A stretch of 64,000 nucleotides of DNA. Source: Nitrosopumilus adriaticus (lineage in GTDB: Archaea; Thermoproteota; Nitrososphaeria; Nitrososphaerales; Nitrosopumilaceae). How positions within the stretch are numbered: position 1 is the stretch's first letter; each line of letters starts with the position of its first letter. The notes below the pieces were generated by a model, which saw nothing but the letters and a program-made list of their open reading frames with translations, did no database searches and was not told where the DNA came from. The stretch is from positions 124,001 to 188,000 of the forward strand of contig NZ_CP011070.1 in assembly GCF_000956175.1 (NCBI RefSeq), in the 5' to 3' direction. Position numbers and translations under genes: made by a program. This document shows positions 43,540 through 63,673 of this stretch, one piece after another.

Positions 43540-44160
43540 ATGCCAGATGATGATGATCTGCCAAAAGATCTTGCTCATATCACACCTGCATACAAACGCG
43601 CATTATGGGTTGTTGTTTTAATCAATGTAGGTTACGGACTTGCAGAAATGATTGGGGGATTCTTGGCAGATTCTCAAGCACTAAAAGCTGACGCACTTGA
43701 TTTTCTAGGTGACGGTTCAATCACATTCTTGGGATTACTTGCAATAGGATGGGGTTTGAAATTACGTGCTCGCTCAGCTCTTCTACAAGGAATCTTTCTT
43801 GGCGTAATGGGAATAGCAGTACTTGGTTATACGATATATCGCACACAAGTTCTGCATGTTCCAGAAGCTGGAATGATGGGAGTCTTTGGCTTTGGTGCAC
43901 TTTTGATAAATGTACTTGCTGTTATCATATTGCTTCCACATAGAAAGGGTGACGCTAACGTACGTGCAGTATGGCTCTTTAGCCGAAATGACGCACTAGG
44001 TAATATTTTGGTAATAGTTGGTGCAGGTTTTGTCTTTTTGACAGGAACCTCATACCCTGACCTTATAGTAGCTGGAATAATTGCAAGTCTCTTTTTACAA
44101 TCATCATTCTCAATAATTAAAGACGCTAGAAATGATCTAAAACAATCTAAATCAACGTAA
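43540..44160 (+). CDS. Cation diffusion facilitator-family transporter, short form
   Basis: 206 residues, membrane domain only. Six hydrophobic segments; KADALDFLGDGSITFLG and LFSRNDALGNILVIVGAGF hold the metal site in the D-xxx-D and N-D form that some CDF branches have instead of H-xxx-D. The C-terminal cytoplasmic metal domain is missing; the start region has an acidic MPDDDDLPKD. Likely exports a divalent metal; the neighbourhood suggests copper or another heavy metal, which is inference. Confidence 0.8.
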   Translation: MPDDDDLPKDLAHITPAYKRALWVVVLINVGYGLAEMIGGFLADSQALKADALDFLGDGSITFLGLLAIGWGLKLRARSALLQGIFLGVMGIAVLGYTIYRTQVLHVPEAGMMGVFGFGALLINVLAVIILLPHRKGDANVRAVWLFSRNDALGNILVIVGAGFVFLTGTSYPDLIVAGIIASLFLQSSFSIIKDARNDLKQSKST

Positions 44161-44246: not shown

Positions 44247-45560
44247 ATGAAAAATGTATTATTTTCTGGAATCTTAATTTTTGCTATTGCTACAATTTCA
44301 CTATCATTAATTTCTGAACAAGTCATGGCACAAACCATGATGAGTCCAAGACAACAAATGATGATGGGAACAAACCCAAATCAAGTAACATGTGCTGATG
44401 GTCTAGTACTAATGATGAAAAATATGGGGATGACTGCATGTGTTAATCCTGATAGTTATCTGCGATTGGCAGATAGAGGATGGGGCAATTGGGATATGAA
44501 TATGATGACAAATGATCCTCAACAAATGCAACGTGTAATGAATAGTATGCTAAGCAATCAGCAAACTGGAAAACTTTGGTATGATGTAATGAAAAATGAT
44601 CCTCAGCATTTACAGACAATGACTGATCAAATGAAAACAACCATGATGAACAATCCTCAGATGATGAGTCCTATGATAAATACAATGATGGATAATCCAG
44701 AACTACGCCAACAAATGATGGACATGATGACACAACACCAACCAATGATACAGACAATGCGAGGAAATAGCACTATGATGAATATGATGAATGGAGGTTC
44801 AATGAATCATGGAATGATGGGAATGATGAATGATCCAGAATTACGTCAACAAATGATGGATATGATGATGAACAATCCTCAGATGATGCAAGACATGATG
44901 AACAATGGAATGATGATGAATATGATGAATGGTAAAATGATGACTGGAAATATGATGGGAAATAATATGATGATGAACAATAACATGATGGGAAATAATA
45001 TGATGAATGGTAACATGATGGGTTCTGGAATGAACCAAGGTATGATGGGTAAGAACATGATGGGTAATTCTATGATGGGCAAAGGAATGATGATGGGCAA
45101 CATGATGGGAATGAATCATGGAATGATGTCAAATATGAATAACATGAGTGCTATGGGAACTGCAATGAATGATCCTGAACTAAGACAACAGATGATGTAT
45201 GACATGATGAATCATCCACAGATGATGTATGACATGATGAACAATAATCAAATGATGAACATGATGAATATGGGAACTATGATGAACAGTAATTGGACTA
45301 TGAACAATCCACAAATGATGAATAACATGATGGGTCAAATGATGAATGATCCTCAAGTAATGCAGAACATGCATGATATGATGTTAAACAATCCTTGGCA
45401 TATGCAAGGAATGATGGGAAACATGATGAGTCCAATGATGAATGCCATGATGGATGATCCTGAATTACGTCAACAAATGATGGATAACATGATGATGCAT
45501 CCACAAATGATGCAGAACATGATGAATAATCAACAGTTTATGCAACAGTTGATTCCGTAA
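44247..45560 (+). CDS. Extremely methionine-rich secreted protein
   Basis: 437 residues after a signal peptide (LFSGILIFAIATISLSLISE). About 130 are Met by hand count, in MM pairs every few residues. A short N-terminal domain with two Cys (CADGLVLMMKNMGMTACVNP then LADRGWG) is followed by repeats of NDPELRQQMMDMM and NNPQMM, with a Gly/Asn/Met-rich centre (GNMMGNNMMMNNNMMGNNMM). Met-rich motifs bind Cu(I), as in copper chaperones and PcoA/CueO-like proteins, so an external copper sink is likely. First gene of an operon with a beta-propeller and a Cys-rich peptide. Opposite-strand frames here are His-rich shadows. Confidence 0.8.
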   Translation: MKNVLFSGILIFAIATISLSLISEQVMAQTMMSPRQQMMMGTNPNQVTCADGLVLMMKNMGMTACVNPDSYLRLADRGWGNWDMNMMTNDPQQMQRVMNSMLSNQQTGKLWYDVMKNDPQHLQTMTDQMKTTMMNNPQMMSPMINTMMDNPELRQQMMDMMTQHQPMIQTMRGNSTMMNMMNGGSMNHGMMGMMNDPELRQQMMDMMMNNPQMMQDMMNNGMMMNMMNGKMMTGNMMGNNMMMNNNMMGNNMMNGNMMGSGMNQGMMGKNMMGNSMMGKGMMMGNMMGMNHGMMSNMNNMSAMGTAMNDPELRQQMMYDMMNHPQMMYDMMNNNQMMNMMNMGTMMNSNWTMNNPQMMNNMMGQMMNDPQVMQNMHDMMLNNPWHMQGMMGNMMSPMMNAMMDDPELRQQMMDNMMMHPQMMQNMMNNQQFMQQLIP

Positions 45561-45562
45561 TC

Positions 45563-46501
45563 TTGGAATCTAAGAAAAAAATATTTGTGGCCAGTGCAAT
45601 TATAGTAGTAATAGTAGTTGTAGCAATATCTCTAGTTGACTCATCTCTTATTTCAGAATCTACTGAAAATACTGATTATTCTAAAACAAATGACTCACGA
45701 ATAATTGATTGGCGTCATGTTCACGGTGTTGGTCTAGATCCTGAAGATAGTTCTATTTTGTACATTGCAACTCATGGTGATTTCTATCAAAGTATCAGTG
45801 GCTCTCCCCCTGTCAAAGTAGACAAGGTAAGAGCTGATTATATGGCATTTAATGCACCTCCAATTCCAGGCATTCCACTTTATGCAAGTGGTCATCCATC
45901 TACTGGGGGAAATACTGGATTGATCAAAAGTAATGATGGCGGAATTACTTGGGAGCATGTTTCAAATGTAATAGAACCTCCTGTTGATTTTCATGCAATG
46001 GCAATAAGCAAACAAAACCCAGAAATGATAATTGGGTTTGATAGTGGTGCAAGAGGCTTGTTCAAAACTACAGATGCTGGAAAAACTTGGGACACTCTAG
46101 AGTATCCAGAATACATTTCTGCACTAGCAATATCACCTAATAATTCTGAACTAATCTTTGCAGGAACTGGCAAAGGAATCTTCAAATCAGAAAATGGGGG
46201 AAATACTTGGATTCATCTTGATGCATATAGGGATTTGGCTGTATTTGCATTGGCATTTGATGATGATGGGAAACTGTTTGCGTCAGTCAAAACATTCGGT
46301 CTTGTACAATCAGATGACCTTGGTGATTCGTGGGAAAGCTTCCAGCATGTTGATCTTACAGTTACAAGCATAGCTGCAGATTCACAACACAAAGAAATCT
46401 ACGTTGGAGGTTATTCATCTGGGGGATTTCAAGAAGTCTATAAAATAAAATATGATTCAAGCACTTATGATAAGATTGGAACCAATAAAGGGTTGAGATG
46501 A
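45563..46501 (+). CDS. BNR/sialidase-type beta-propeller, membrane-anchored
   Basis: 312 residues, TTG start 2 nt after the Met-rich gene. One N-terminal helix (IFVASAIIVVIVVVAISLVD), then a propeller with SNDGGITWEHV, TTDAGKTWDTL, SENGGNTWIHL and SDDLGDSWESF Asp-box repeats. The family is usually called F510-type or Ycf48/sialidase-like; no sialidase catalytic residues were looked up. Extracytoplasmic. It ends one base before the start of the Cys-rich peptide gene. Confidence 0.82.
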   Translation: MESKKKIFVASAIIVVIVVVAISLVDSSLISESTENTDYSKTNDSRIIDWRHVHGVGLDPEDSSILYIATHGDFYQSISGSPPVKVDKVRADYMAFNAPPIPGIPLYASGHPSTGGNTGLIKSNDGGITWEHVSNVIEPPVDFHAMAISKQNPEMIIGFDSGARGLFKTTDAGKTWDTLEYPEYISALAISPNNSELIFAGTGKGIFKSENGGNTWIHLDAYRDLAVFALAFDDDGKLFASVKTFGLVQSDDLGDSWESFQHVDLTVTSIAADSQHKEIYVGGYSSGGFQEVYKIKYDSSTYDKIGTNKGLR

Positions 46502-46609
46502 TTGGAATCTAAAAAACAATTTTGTAATTACTGTTCTGAAGACACATGTTTGCTAGATTGTGAAATATGTGATCCAAAGTTTGACAAGGACTGTAATTGT
46601 TACTGCTAA
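46502..46609 (+). CDS. Cys-rich metallothionein-like peptide (35 aa)
   Basis: TTG at 46502 directly follows the TGA of the propeller gene. MESKKQFCNYCSEDTCLLDC is followed by EICDPKFDKDCNCYC: eight Cys in 35 residues with CxxC, CxxxC, CxxC and CNCYC spacing, and no signal peptide, so a cytoplasmic metal binder. Its first codons repeat those of the upstream propeller gene (both start MESKK, same bases TTGGAATCTAA). Together with the Met-rich protein it suggests metal (copper) buffering. Confidence 0.7.
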   Translation: MESKKQFCNYCSEDTCLLDCEICDPKFDKDCNCYC

Positions 46610-46622
46610 ATTATAGTTAGGA

Positions 46623-47141
46623 CTAACATGTTAAATTCTCTTCATCATTTAACATATTCCAAAAGTCAAATGCAGTGTATTGTTCTGATACTACATATGG
46701 AATCCCAATAACTGTGGTTTGAAATTGTGTTACTACATCCATCTTTCTAGGATCGATTCTAACGGTATTGTCACTACCACTAAACAAATGATCAAAGTGC
46801 ATGAAAAGGGTTTGCGAATACTCTATTGAATCCGAAACATATTCTCCATTTGCTTTAACTATTGAATTTGGATCGATAATTGTAGAATCAATTACATAGG
46901 TTCCTAAAAGTTCTTTTTCAAAATAGATCAGTATGCCCAACTCATTAAAACTTGCAGGAATCCATGAATTGTTACAAATATTGATTTTAGTATCTACAGT
47001 ATACAATGAAAAAAATCTAAAAAGATTATCGATTCCACCAAATTCAAGTTGTTCCAAAGCATAGACATTCAATAATGAATATCCTACTGTGCCAAGTATG
47101 ACTATAATTGCAATACAACTAATTATTTTTTGTTTTTCCAT
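46623..47141 (-). CDS. Hypothetical membrane-anchored protein
   Basis: 172 residues. N-terminal helix (IISCIAIIVILGTVGYSLL), then an exodomain with LFRFFSLYTVDTKINICNNS and ASFNELGILIYFEKELLGTY, a beta-sandwich order reminiscent of LEA14/WHy domains. Ends with a single Cys at the C-terminus (LTC). Convergent with the Cys-rich peptide gene. The gene upstream (47144-47419) ends 2 nt from its start, so they are co-transcribed. Function unknown. Confidence 0.55.
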   Translation of the reverse strand: MEKQKIISCIAIIVILGTVGYSLLNVYALEQLEFGGIDNLFRFFSLYTVDTKINICNNSWIPASFNELGILIYFEKELLGTYVIDSTIIDPNSIVKANGEYVSDSIEYSQTLFMHFDHLFSGSDNTVRIDPRKMDVVTQFQTTVIGIPYVVSEQYTAFDFWNMLNDEENLTC

Positions 47142-58325: not shown

Positions 58326-59123
58326 GTGAAAGATTTTGAATTTATTGAAGATAAAAAATCAGATAACCAAATTATTGTAAACAAGTCAACGTTTAATCGA
58401 CTAATTATGGCAATTGTAGCAGCAGCTGTTGTTTCTGCATTTTTAGGTGGCTATGTAGTTGGGGGAGAAACAGCAGAACCAAAAGAAGTCATTGTTAGAG
58501 AAGCCGTTCCAACATCTCAAGCAAAACCAACTTCACAAGAACAGCTTGGACCTCAAATTATTAGAAATATCTCAATTGATGATGATCCTATGAAAGGAAA
58601 CCCTGACGCATCAATTAGTATTATTGAATTTTCTGACTTTCAATGCCCATTCTGTGCAAAGTTTCATGAAACAACCCTTCCGCAACTAGAACAAAACTAT
58701 ATTTCCACAGGAAAGGTAAATTTTGTGTACCGAGACTTTCCAATCCAGAGTATTCATCCAAATGCGATTCCTGCTGCACTTGCATCAGAATGTGCTGATG
58801 ATCAAGGAAAATTCTGGGAGATGCATGATGAGATCTTCAAAAATCAGAGAATATGGCAAGATCTAGAAATTCTGCAATCTGTAGCCCTCTTCAAACAATA
58901 TGCATCTAATTTGGGACTTGATGAAAATGCTTTTGACTCATGCCTAGATTCTGGAAAATATCTTAATGAGATTACAAATGATCTTAATGATGGTCGTGCA
59001 TATGGTGTTACTGGAACTCCTGCATTCTTTGTTGGAAATGAAAAAATTGGATTTACACATATTTCAGGCGCACAACCATATTCTACATTTCAAAGAGTCA
59101 TAGATGGACAGCTTGATCAATAA
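58326..59123 (+). CDS. DsbA-family thiol-disulfide oxidoreductase, membrane-anchored
   Basis: 265 residues, GTG start. N-terminal cytoplasmic tail, one TM (LIMAIVAAAVVSAFLGGYVV), linker, and a DsbA-like thioredoxin domain with active site FSDFQCPFCAKFHE (CPFC) and the cis-Pro in YGVTGTPAFFVG. Catalyses disulfide formation or isomerisation in extracytoplasmic proteins. Directly under the first operator palindrome; next gene is the Lrp-TRASH regulator. Confidence 0.92.
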   Translation: MKDFEFIEDKKSDNQIIVNKSTFNRLIMAIVAAAVVSAFLGGYVVGGETAEPKEVIVREAVPTSQAKPTSQEQLGPQIIRNISIDDDPMKGNPDASISIIEFSDFQCPFCAKFHETTLPQLEQNYISTGKVNFVYRDFPIQSIHPNAIPAALASECADDQGKFWEMHDEIFKNQRIWQDLEILQSVALFKQYASNLGLDENAFDSCLDSGKYLNEITNDLNDGRAYGVTGTPAFFVGNEKIGFTHISGAQPYSTFQRVIDGQLDQ

Positions 59124-59165: not shown

Positions 59166-59198
59166 GTTCATAAATATCTAGAGATGGTAAAGATTCTC

Positions 59199-59636
59199 AT
59201 GCCACATGAATTAGATGACGTAGATATTGGCATTGTGACATCTCTACAACAAGATGGGAGGAAATCATTTAGACAGATTGCAAGAGAACTTAACATAAGC
59301 ACTCCTACAGTACAAGCTAGATATCAAAGATTACTCAATATAGGATTAATAAAATCAGTTTCTCCTGTAATTGATTCTTCTAATGTTATAGATGGACAAA
59401 AGAAACAACTCCAAACATGTGATTGTCATGAGTCTCATGATGTAGATTTAAAATCAGGAATGTCTGTAACTATGAAATGCGATTTATGTGATGGTCCTAT
59501 AGGGGACAAACCTCATGTTTACAAATTTGCAAATTTTGAGAGATTTTTCTGTTGTAATACCTGTAAAACTCAGTACAAGGAAAAAAACAAAGGACGAATT
59601 CAATCAATTATAGAAAAAGATAAAGAAAAAAACTGA
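59199..59636 (+). CDS. Lrp/AsnC-type regulator with C-terminal TRASH-like metal domain
   Basis: 145 residues from the ATG at 59199 (MPHELDDVDIGIV), chosen over 59184 because the TATA lies 21-30 nt before it. The AsnC HTH spans about 1-60 (LQQDGRKSFRQIARELNIST and TPTVQARYQRL). The usual ligand domain is replaced by a Cys-rich TRASH-like region: CDCHESHD, then MKCDLCDGPIGDKPHVYKFA, then RFFCCNTCKTQYKEK, the spacing of metal-sensing TRASH domains such as in archaeal copper regulators. Probably senses Cu or another thiophilic metal. It ends where the next palindrome begins. Confidence 0.85.
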   Translation: MPHELDDVDIGIVTSLQQDGRKSFRQIARELNISTPTVQARYQRLLNIGLIKSVSPVIDSSNVIDGQKKQLQTCDCHESHDVDLKSGMSVTMKCDLCDGPIGDKPHVYKFANFERFFCCNTCKTQYKEKNKGRIQSIIEKDKEKN

Positions 59637-61790: not shown

Positions 61791-61920
61791 TTTCAAAATG
61801 CTCTGGGTTGTTTTCAAATGCCCATCTGCAACTAGCACAACAGAATCGATATTCCTTTCCTTTGTAAGAAAATACTTCACCTTTCTCCCCCATTTCCATT
61901 CCACATACAGGATCTTTCAT
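61780..61920 (-). CDS. YHS-domain metal-binding protein (46 aa)
   Basis: ATG at 61920 overlaps the ccdA TGA (ATGA) and the TAA at 61780-61782 lies within the start of the next gene. Sequence MKDPVCGMEMGEKGEVFSYK, then GKEYRFCCASCRWAFENNPE: the DPVCGM...YRFCCxxC pattern is the YHS family, found at the ends of copper ATPases and in mercury and copper proteins. Three Cys in CCASC plus one earlier would bind a metal. Not found as a separate frame by length filters because of its size. Confidence 0.8.
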   Translation of the reverse strand: MKDPVCGMEMGEKGEVFSYKGKEYRFCCASCRWAFENNPEHFENES

Positions 61921-62912
61921 GCATTCACTCCTCTTATTCTTCTGACTGACCGTACAAAAAGTGGACTAAGGATCAAAACTGCCAACAAAGCACCATAAAA
62001 TATTTTGAAGTCTCCCTTAACATGTCCGTGCTCATGATCATGCTCATCCATCTCAAACTCTGATGGAATAGGAGTCATTTCAATTATGCTATTCCATCCC
62101 TTATGGATAAATGTCTCCTCATACCATTCATGACCTTCTGGAAGACCATTAATTATCAAAAAGGCACCAATAACGATCAGCATCCATCCAGAAGCCCTTT
62201 CAATTGATTCTCTTTTGAGGGTAAGGCTCTTTGTTGCATTGATTCCAATTACTGCAAGAACTGACATCAAAATCAAAGGAATTGCTCTTCCTACTCCATG
62301 CACAACCCCTAATGATGCACCTACCTCTATACTTCCAGTCCCTGCAATGTAAATCAAAAGCCAATAAAATAATGGATTGGGACAACCAACTCCTGCATTT
62401 CCAAGTAACAATCCCATGAAAAATGATTTTGTATATTCTCCACGATTCTGTATGAACTTTGGTGTTCCTGAATATGACGGCAGTCTAAGAGAAATTATTT
62501 TTAGTTGAGATAAACCAAAAACAAAGGCTGCTATTCCTGCAATCAAAAACATTACAGTTGATGCTTGATCTAATGATGCACTCTGCCCAATTGCTGCAAT
62601 TGCCATTCCATAAGCTGCTATTGTAATTGTTAGACCTACACCAAAAAGTAGTGCCATACTCAAACCTTTCTTGTAACCTTGACCCATACTTAGTGGAACA
62701 ATAATGAAAACAAGGGGTAATGTACATGGTAGAACAATCATTGATAGACCTGCAACATATGCAATAACAATCCATGAAAGATATGTTGTATGCTCTTTTC
62801 CTTCAATTGTAAAACTTGTTCCAAGCGAAAAAATTATTCCAAGAAAAATTAATGAAAATAAAATAAATGAAATAATTACCATTGATTTTTTTGCAATTAC
62901 AACTGAAGACAT
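61917..62912 (-). CDS. CcdA/DsbD-type membrane thiol transporter
   Basis: 331 residues, 8 or so hydrophobic segments. The two cysteines of the CcdA core are visible: AGLSMIVLPCTLPLVFIIVP and LLLGNAGVGCPNPLFYWLL. A His/Asp-rich loop (EMDEHDHEHGHVKGD) near the C-terminus may bind metal. Moves reducing equivalents across the membrane to extracytoplasmic thiols. Under an operator at 62949; TATA-like TTAAGTATC is about 23-30 nt upstream. First of three genes. Confidence 0.88.
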   Translation of the reverse strand: MSSVVIAKKSMVIISFILFSLIFLGIIFSLGTSFTIEGKEHTTYLSWIVIAYVAGLSMIVLPCTLPLVFIIVPLSMGQGYKKGLSMALLFGVGLTITIAAYGMAIAAIGQSASLDQASTVMFLIAGIAAFVFGLSQLKIISLRLPSYSGTPKFIQNRGEYTKSFFMGLLLGNAGVGCPNPLFYWLLIYIAGTGSIEVGASLGVVHGVGRAIPLILMSVLAVIGINATKSLTLKRESIERASGWMLIVIGAFLIINGLPEGHEWYEETFIHKGWNSIIEMTPIPSEFEMDEHDHEHGHVKGDFKIFYGALLAVLILSPLFVRSVRRIRGVNA

Positions 62913-62989: not shown

Positions 62990-63673
62990 TTATGACATGG
63001 ATTCAATTACTTTCTCAAATACTGGATATGGCTGTGGTCCCACAATTTTCTCTTGAATGCCATCAGGGCCAACAATGAAAAATGTAGGAGTGCCTGTTAC
63101 TCCATTTTCCTGTGCCTCATTTGTGTTAAATTGCACACGTTTTTGATATTTTGCCGAATCTAGGCAATTTACAAACAAATCCATATCTAATCCTAAATTG
63201 TAGGCGTATCCTTTTAGGCTGTCTGAGTTTGCCCAGCCACTGTCAATTGATAATTGATTTGAATACAGAAATCCATGATAATCCCAGTATTTTTCTTGTT
63301 CTTCTGCACAGTAAGTTGCTATTGATGCAGGAACCGAATCTTTGCCTAAGAAAGCAATATCTACAAAAACCAGTTTTGCTTTTCCTGTTTCAATGTAATT
63401 AGTTACAATGTCGGGTTTTGTATTTAGAAACCATTTCTTACAATTAGGACATTGATAATCCCCAAATTCAATTATGGTGATTGGTGCATTAGAGGAACCC
63501 ATAATTGGTGAACCAAGCGAGGTATCAACAGTACCAATTTGTCTATTCATATCAAGATTGATGGATTCTGAATTTGTAGGTATTTGATAAAATAATACAA
63601 GTGTTACTAAAACAACTACAATACTTGCAGCAAATATAATTTGCTTAGGTTTGCTTTTCTTACTCTTTTTCAT
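62990..63673 (-). CDS. DsbA-family thioredoxin-fold protein, membrane-anchored
   Basis: 227 residues. N-terminal anchor (IIFAASIVVVLVTLVLFYQI), then a DsbA-like domain with active site FGDYQCPNCKKWF (CPNC) and cis-Pro NGVTGTPTFFIVG. Paralogue of 58326-59123 but with a different CxxC, so perhaps a different redox potential. Upstream site 63714-63731. Confidence 0.91.
   Translation of the reverse strand: MKKSKKSKPKQIIFAASIVVVLVTLVLFYQIPTNSESINLDMNRQIGTVDTSLGSPIMGSSNAPITIIEFGDYQCPNCKKWFLNTKPDIVTNYIETGKAKLVFVDIAFLGKDSVPASIATYCAEEQEKYWDYHGFLYSNQLSIDSGWANSDSLKGYAYNLGLDMDLFVNCLDSAKYQKRVQFNTNEAQENGVTGTPTFFIVGPDGIQEKIVGPQPYPVFEKVIESMS

Follow-up and report, generated by a model that had tools for sequence, protein, structure and literature searches.

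What does a frame of 35 codons with eight cysteines, lying directly behind a propeller gene of Nitrosopumilus adriaticus, encode, and is it a gene at all? Marine ammonia-oxidising archaea run on copper enzymes, and their cytoplasmic metal buffering is, to our knowledge, largely unknown; no archaeal metallothionein was found in the literature searched. In the window, by which the whole stretch of 64,000 nucleotides that was analysed is meant, the local order runs from CDF efflux through a Met-rich exported protein and a membrane-anchored propeller to the peptide, with the following features:

43540..44160, + strand: CDF cation efflux transporter, upstream of the Met-rich gene
44247..45560, + strand: exported Met-rich protein of 437 aa with a signal-like N-terminus, 2 nt upstream of the propeller TTG
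45563..46501, + strand: membrane-anchored beta-propeller (Sortilin-Vps10 / PSII_BNR type)
46502..46609, + strand: Cys-rich microprotein gene, TTG start, 35 aa, 8 Cys (23%), with core C8-x2-C11-x4-C16-x3-C20-x2-C23 and tail C31xC33xC35
46610..46700: downstream flank of the peptide gene
46623..47141, - strand: convergent gene downstream of the peptide

The translation of the frame, MESKKQFCNYCSEDTCLLDCEICDPKFDKDCNCYC, contains CxxC twice and CxCxC, and its aromatic residues are F7, Y10, F27 and Y34. Its TTG abuts the TGA of the propeller frame with a gap of 0 nt and the Met-rich gene stands two genes earlier, both as described in the sequence-only reading, and translation of the peptide is probably coupled to the propeller stop codon. 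Because no signal, membrane or other hydrophobic segment is present in the 35 residues, the peptide is taken to be cytoplasmic. The promoter scan was a bacterial one and is not informative for an archaeon. The region abounds in metal and thiol genes, for some 12-17 kb downstream of the peptide there are two that encode DsbA-like proteins, one for a TRASH-type Lrp regulator and one for a membrane protein of CcdA/DsbD-like type (window positions 58326-59123, 59184-59636, 61917-62912 and 62990-63673).

Cysteine content alone is weak proof of a gene, because short Cys-rich frames also arise by chance: at least 20% Cys was found in 3 of 500 ORFs of 25-60 aa in the window and in 7 of 4443 ORFs of the same size in 560 kb of comparison DNA. 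It is homology, rather than Cys richness, that marks this gene as real. A second copy, MESKKKQFCGYCPEDKCLLDCKICNPKFGKGCKCDC, lies at 461.9 kb in the same genome (1,803,090 bases, one contig; E 8.5e-12, 70% identity), and 49 of 250 genomes of the family Nitrosopumilaceae bear the peptide, in one to five copies each. Profile searches gave matches in 48 of 400 genomes at the level of the order and in 22 of 398 at that of the phylum; the only match outside the same family was on a short contig from a MAG that bears the name Nitrosocosmicus. This 7.9-kb contig carries the order propeller-peptide-C9 (L110 / L118), and either horizontal transfer or a binning error would account for its assignment. 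Viral carriage was rejected, the viral contigs of IMG/VR being without a relative of the peptide, and a weak third match in the own genome (L003, E 0.26) was discarded as antisense within an aldehyde dehydrogenase-like gene.

Altogether 73 copies were collected, and the core cysteines are kept in 61 of them; in-frame stops occur in 8 copies and core cysteines are lost in 4, so that about one copy in 6 is broken. Over the 21-codon core of 61 distinct intact sequences, pN was 0.086 against a saturated pS of 0.76, a ratio of 0.11 that is biased low because the sequences were recruited through protein similarity and only those with intact cores were retained. Third positions change freely at fixed amino acids in the codon table, and long-term selection is indicated because synonymous sites are saturated while the protein is conserved. 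The gene is an accessory one, since it is absent from many genomes of the genus and about a sixth of its copies are broken; its presence is weakly associated with genome size (1.70 vs 1.54 Mb, p 0.03). A chance Cys-rich ORF, for which the ease with which such frames arise could be cited, has a negligible probability and is rejected in view of the homologs, the selection and the conserved position. Judged by its sequence, the 35-residue, eight-Cys frame is a real, selected gene of an unnamed microprotein family in marine ammonia-oxidising archaea.

Intact members of the family keep C-x2-C-x4-C-x3-C-x2-C, and total Cys is seven in 33 of the 61 copies and eight in 12, the window copy among them. 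A CxC tail is found in 43/61, the number of tail cysteines ranging from 0 to 3; His is almost absent, and CGYC occurs in most copies, with CNYC in that of the window. Three members from genus g13 (L053, L062, L067) have an N-terminal extension with one extra Cys (MDDENLPVECHPRFE...). Besides the cysteines, F7, Y10, L17, L18, I22, N24 and P25 are conserved, and Q6, Y10, D14, D19 and L17/L18/I22/N24/P25 are kept as well as some of the cysteines, suggesting a defined fold or a partner surface. Searches with 36 family members gave no match to Pfam-A or NCBIfam and no metallothionein model up to E 1, and the best hit among PDB sequences (E 0.11) covered the LxDCxIC stretch alone. The apo model from AlphaFold2 was not a confident one, its pLDDT of 57 being too low for a fold search, and had no predicted helices of four or more residues; this low confidence would be compatible with folding on metal, but a low-confidence model of 35 residues is not readable as support.

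Because the non-Cys residues are so conserved, the main rival to a metal-thiolate function is a one-zinc microprotein, a serious possibility that we hold tentatively. In such a zinc-finger-like protein, C8-x2-C11 and C20-x2-C23 (CxxC-x8-CxxC) would hold one structural Zn, the conserved residues would form a surface for a partner, whether the coupled membrane protein, a regulator or nucleic acid, and the peptide would be a small regulator or accessory subunit instead of a metal store. The strict conservation of F/Y/L/I/D/N/P between the cysteines argues for this, as do the C-terminal cysteines, dispensable in some copies, and the precedent of small archaeal zinc-finger proteins such as Brz, which regulate adjacent genes (PMC2253796). 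However, one site would require neither the fifth core Cys, which is also invariant, nor the CxC tail; a regulator would be unusual in having four or five near-identical copies per genome, and the PDB sequences gave no fold match. Nor do the motifs suit the CPxCG-related proteins, which are defined by at least one CPxCG, CPxCx or CxxCG and a second Cys/His pattern 7-40 residues away (PMC2253796): CPxC or CxxCG is required, whereas the peptides have CNYCS/CGYCP and CEICD/CKICN.

The position of the gene was followed through 13 propeller orthologs with identities of 60% or more, twelve from the genus and one from the Nitrosocosmicus-named contig. The peptide lies directly after, or overlaps, the propeller stop in 8 of them, which answers the call of the sequence-only reading to look for the frame at the same place in relatives and bears out the conservation of frame and cysteines on which that reading had staked itself; apparent relics of the peptide start are seen in two (TTGAAATCTTAA in G118 and a frame-broken start in G147), and nothing of the peptide in the other three. 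The Met-rich gene is directly followed by the peptide at three loci from three other genomes, L048, L081 and L055, the copy of L055 being broken, and a CDF gene is also near that of L081. G087 has the peptide directly behind the Met-rich gene, next a gene for a NicO/DsbD_2-like membrane protein, and, divergent to them on the other strand, an ArsR-type regulator and a CDF gene. Most copies in other genomes are not beside a Met-rich gene; the peptide is found there behind a DUF6789-like membrane gene (C7) or a pyridoxamine-oxidase-like gene, or alone next to a YnfA (UPF0060) pair.

These neighbours bear on the metal. The Met-rich protein suggests Cu(I), and the CDF and ArsR-type genes suggest Zn or other divalent ions. 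Copper, as in the copper operon of the sequence-only reading, is a candidate metal rather than an established one, as the CDF gene before the Met-rich gene and the ArsR-type gene in G087 fit Zn, Co, Ni or Cd at least as well. Its two-sided copper buffering agrees with the exported Met-rich neighbour and the cytoplasmic Cys peptide of this locus, but is a local arrangement at best, because most copies lie elsewhere.

Neighbour enrichment was scored by presence or absence in 61 intervals around peptide copies and 84 random 6-kb control intervals from the own and other peptide-bearing genomes; this replaced a count of distinct Pfam families, which was uninformative since the neighbours are too diverse. 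CDF, CopA, NicO-like or TRASH genes lay within 3 kb in 12/61 peptide intervals against 1/84 random ones (p 1.3e-4), in 10 against 1 when the NicO-like gene, a weak assignment, is set aside (p 8e-4), and CopA by itself in 3/61 against 0/84 (p 0.07), p-values that are indicative only, because the loci share ancestry and several query proteins came from them. The corresponding counts were 16 and 0 for YnfA, 9 and 0 for the propeller, 8 and 1 for cupredoxins, and 11 and 3 for DsbA/CcdA. TRASH-domain regulators are near three of the sampled copies and next to the second own-genome copy (L002). The DsbA/CcdA neighbours, together with the CGYC of most copies, would suit a thiol-redox or thiol-transfer peptide in which CGYC is the redox pair beside DsbA/CcdA-type systems. 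Such a role is nevertheless distinctly unlikely, as 35 aa are too short for a thioredoxin fold, CNYC replaces CGYC in the window copy, none of the five core cysteines is less invariant than the others, and the peptide is cytoplasmic whereas DsbA proteins are exported.

The copies also carry traces of exchange. That of the window is a mosaic, with an upstream flank as in the propeller-linked copies (~72-83%, best five) and a 3' end in which 36 nt are 86% identical and the next ~76 nt 100% identical to L033 of G118, a copy that sits behind a C7 gene; the 100% match therefore assigns this end to the lineage adjoining the convergent gene 46623-47141 (-). In G118, a YnfA-YnfA-HxlR-C7-peptide block stands between the propeller, with its relic of a peptide start, and the same downstream gene, and three of the five peptide copies lie within 17.4 kb (G118:C1:131070-148511; chance 0.003), one of them directly behind a YnfA-YnfA-HxlR-C7 block. 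At L002, C7 is a tail relic and the peptide intact. The window propeller starts TTGGAATCTAAGAAA after TAATC (45558-45590), the same as the Met-rich/peptide junction of L048, and looks as though it had acquired the start of a peptide gene by fusion. The mosaic copy, the G118 block, the C7 relic and the TAATC junction all fit exchange between peptide copies, which appear to recombine, decay and travel with accessory gene blocks.

With such mobility, the peptide could be travelling as a passenger on accessory islands that are mobile or recombine, conserved through recent spread and gene conversion more than through a function in each genome. The patchy presence, the several copies, the 8 with in-frame stops and 4 with lost core cysteines, the mosaic and the G118 cluster all point this way, but we regard the idea as very improbable, since saturated synonymous sites and a conserved protein speak of long-term selection and the peptide persists where the linked C7 is a mere relic, as at L002. 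Rather unlikely, too, is an archaeal metallothionein-like family whose copies double as homologous recombination sites for accessory metal/thiol blocks; speculatively, the YnfA pair-HxlR-C7 block, DsbA and the propeller would be inserted, swapped and lost at peptide genes. If this were so, the metal buffer and the address for resistance cassettes would be the same gene.

With a probability of about one half, the peptide is a metal-thiolate microprotein of the cytoplasm that functions in the manner of a metallothionein or metal chaperone, a reading based on the lack of a signal or membrane segment, the conserved thiolates, the proximity to metal genes and the multi-copy occurrence. Its translation would take place at the 3' ends of local operons, coupled here to the propeller stop codon, and it would bind soft or borderline metal ions, presumably Zn(II) and/or Cu(I), via the five core thiolates, with two or three further thiolates from the CxC(xC) tail. 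Once expressed, it may buffer metal beside efflux and thiol-redox proteins, and up to five copies per genome fit a dosage-type buffer. Against the metal-thiolate reading, the non-Cys conservation appears to exceed the needs of a plain metal sponge, the tail cysteines vary from 0 to 3, the neighbours are diverse and the gene is accessory. As a Cys microprotein under selection, in several copies and without a match among the Pfam and NCBIfam models, the peptide is a candidate open to direct test, and its patchy copy number could mark metal niches among species.

A second, unrelated Cys-rich microprotein, MSKSCECGICGHHSESECREKECKCCLNFHERSGPKRK (~18% Cys), is encoded at G000:C1:1003074-1003187 (L180:3075-3188). 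It occurs in 34 of the 61 relatives sampled, some of them from two other families of the order, has a diverged paralog, is more widely spread than the 35-aa peptide and is another candidate for cytoplasmic metal handling.

How, then, does the peptide compare with known systems? Classical metallothioneins have no or few aromatic and hydrophobic residues, and bacterial members vary. The peptide is short and has ~20-30% Cys in CxC/CxxC clusters, as metallothioneins do, but Y10, L17, L18 and I22 are conserved across the family, and membership is doubtful because such aromatic and aliphatic residues are atypical of the classical proteins. The metallothionein-like label of the sequence-only reading fits the Cys richness; as no metallothionein, Pfam or NCBIfam model matches, the peptide is not filed as a metallothionein, though it probably works like one.

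The archaeal TRASH-domain metallochaperone/regulator systems (CopT/CopM type) share its presumed small, Cys-based handling of metal, but the peptide has no TRASH match in Pfam. The Brz family of CPxCG-related small archaeal zinc fingers is likewise short, with paired CxxC, and often encoded beside the genes affected (PMC2253796); the peptide is shorter, richer in Cys and has neither CPxC nor CxxCG. The copper storage proteins (Csp) offer the likeness of a Cys-rich copper reserve proposed in an ammonia-oxidising archaeon, Nitrososphaera viennensis, with 18 Cys (PMC7785015), but are four-helix bundles of >100 residues against 35 here. From bacterial metallothioneins, the peptide differs in having no Pfam/NCBIfam match and hardly any His, in keeping aromatic and aliphatic residues between its cysteines, in a metal binding that is predicted, and in being archaeal and multi-copy. 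It resembles those of the SmtA/NmtA/PmtA type and MymT of Mycobacterium tuberculosis in being very small, Cys-rich and cytoplasmic with clustered CxxC and CxC; MymT, too, was a missed small ORF, and metallothioneins, according to a review, fold once metal is bound (PMC7558416). Moreover, smtA has the ArsR-type regulator SmtB (PMC7387436), a likeness to the ArsR-type regulator at the peptide locus of a relative.
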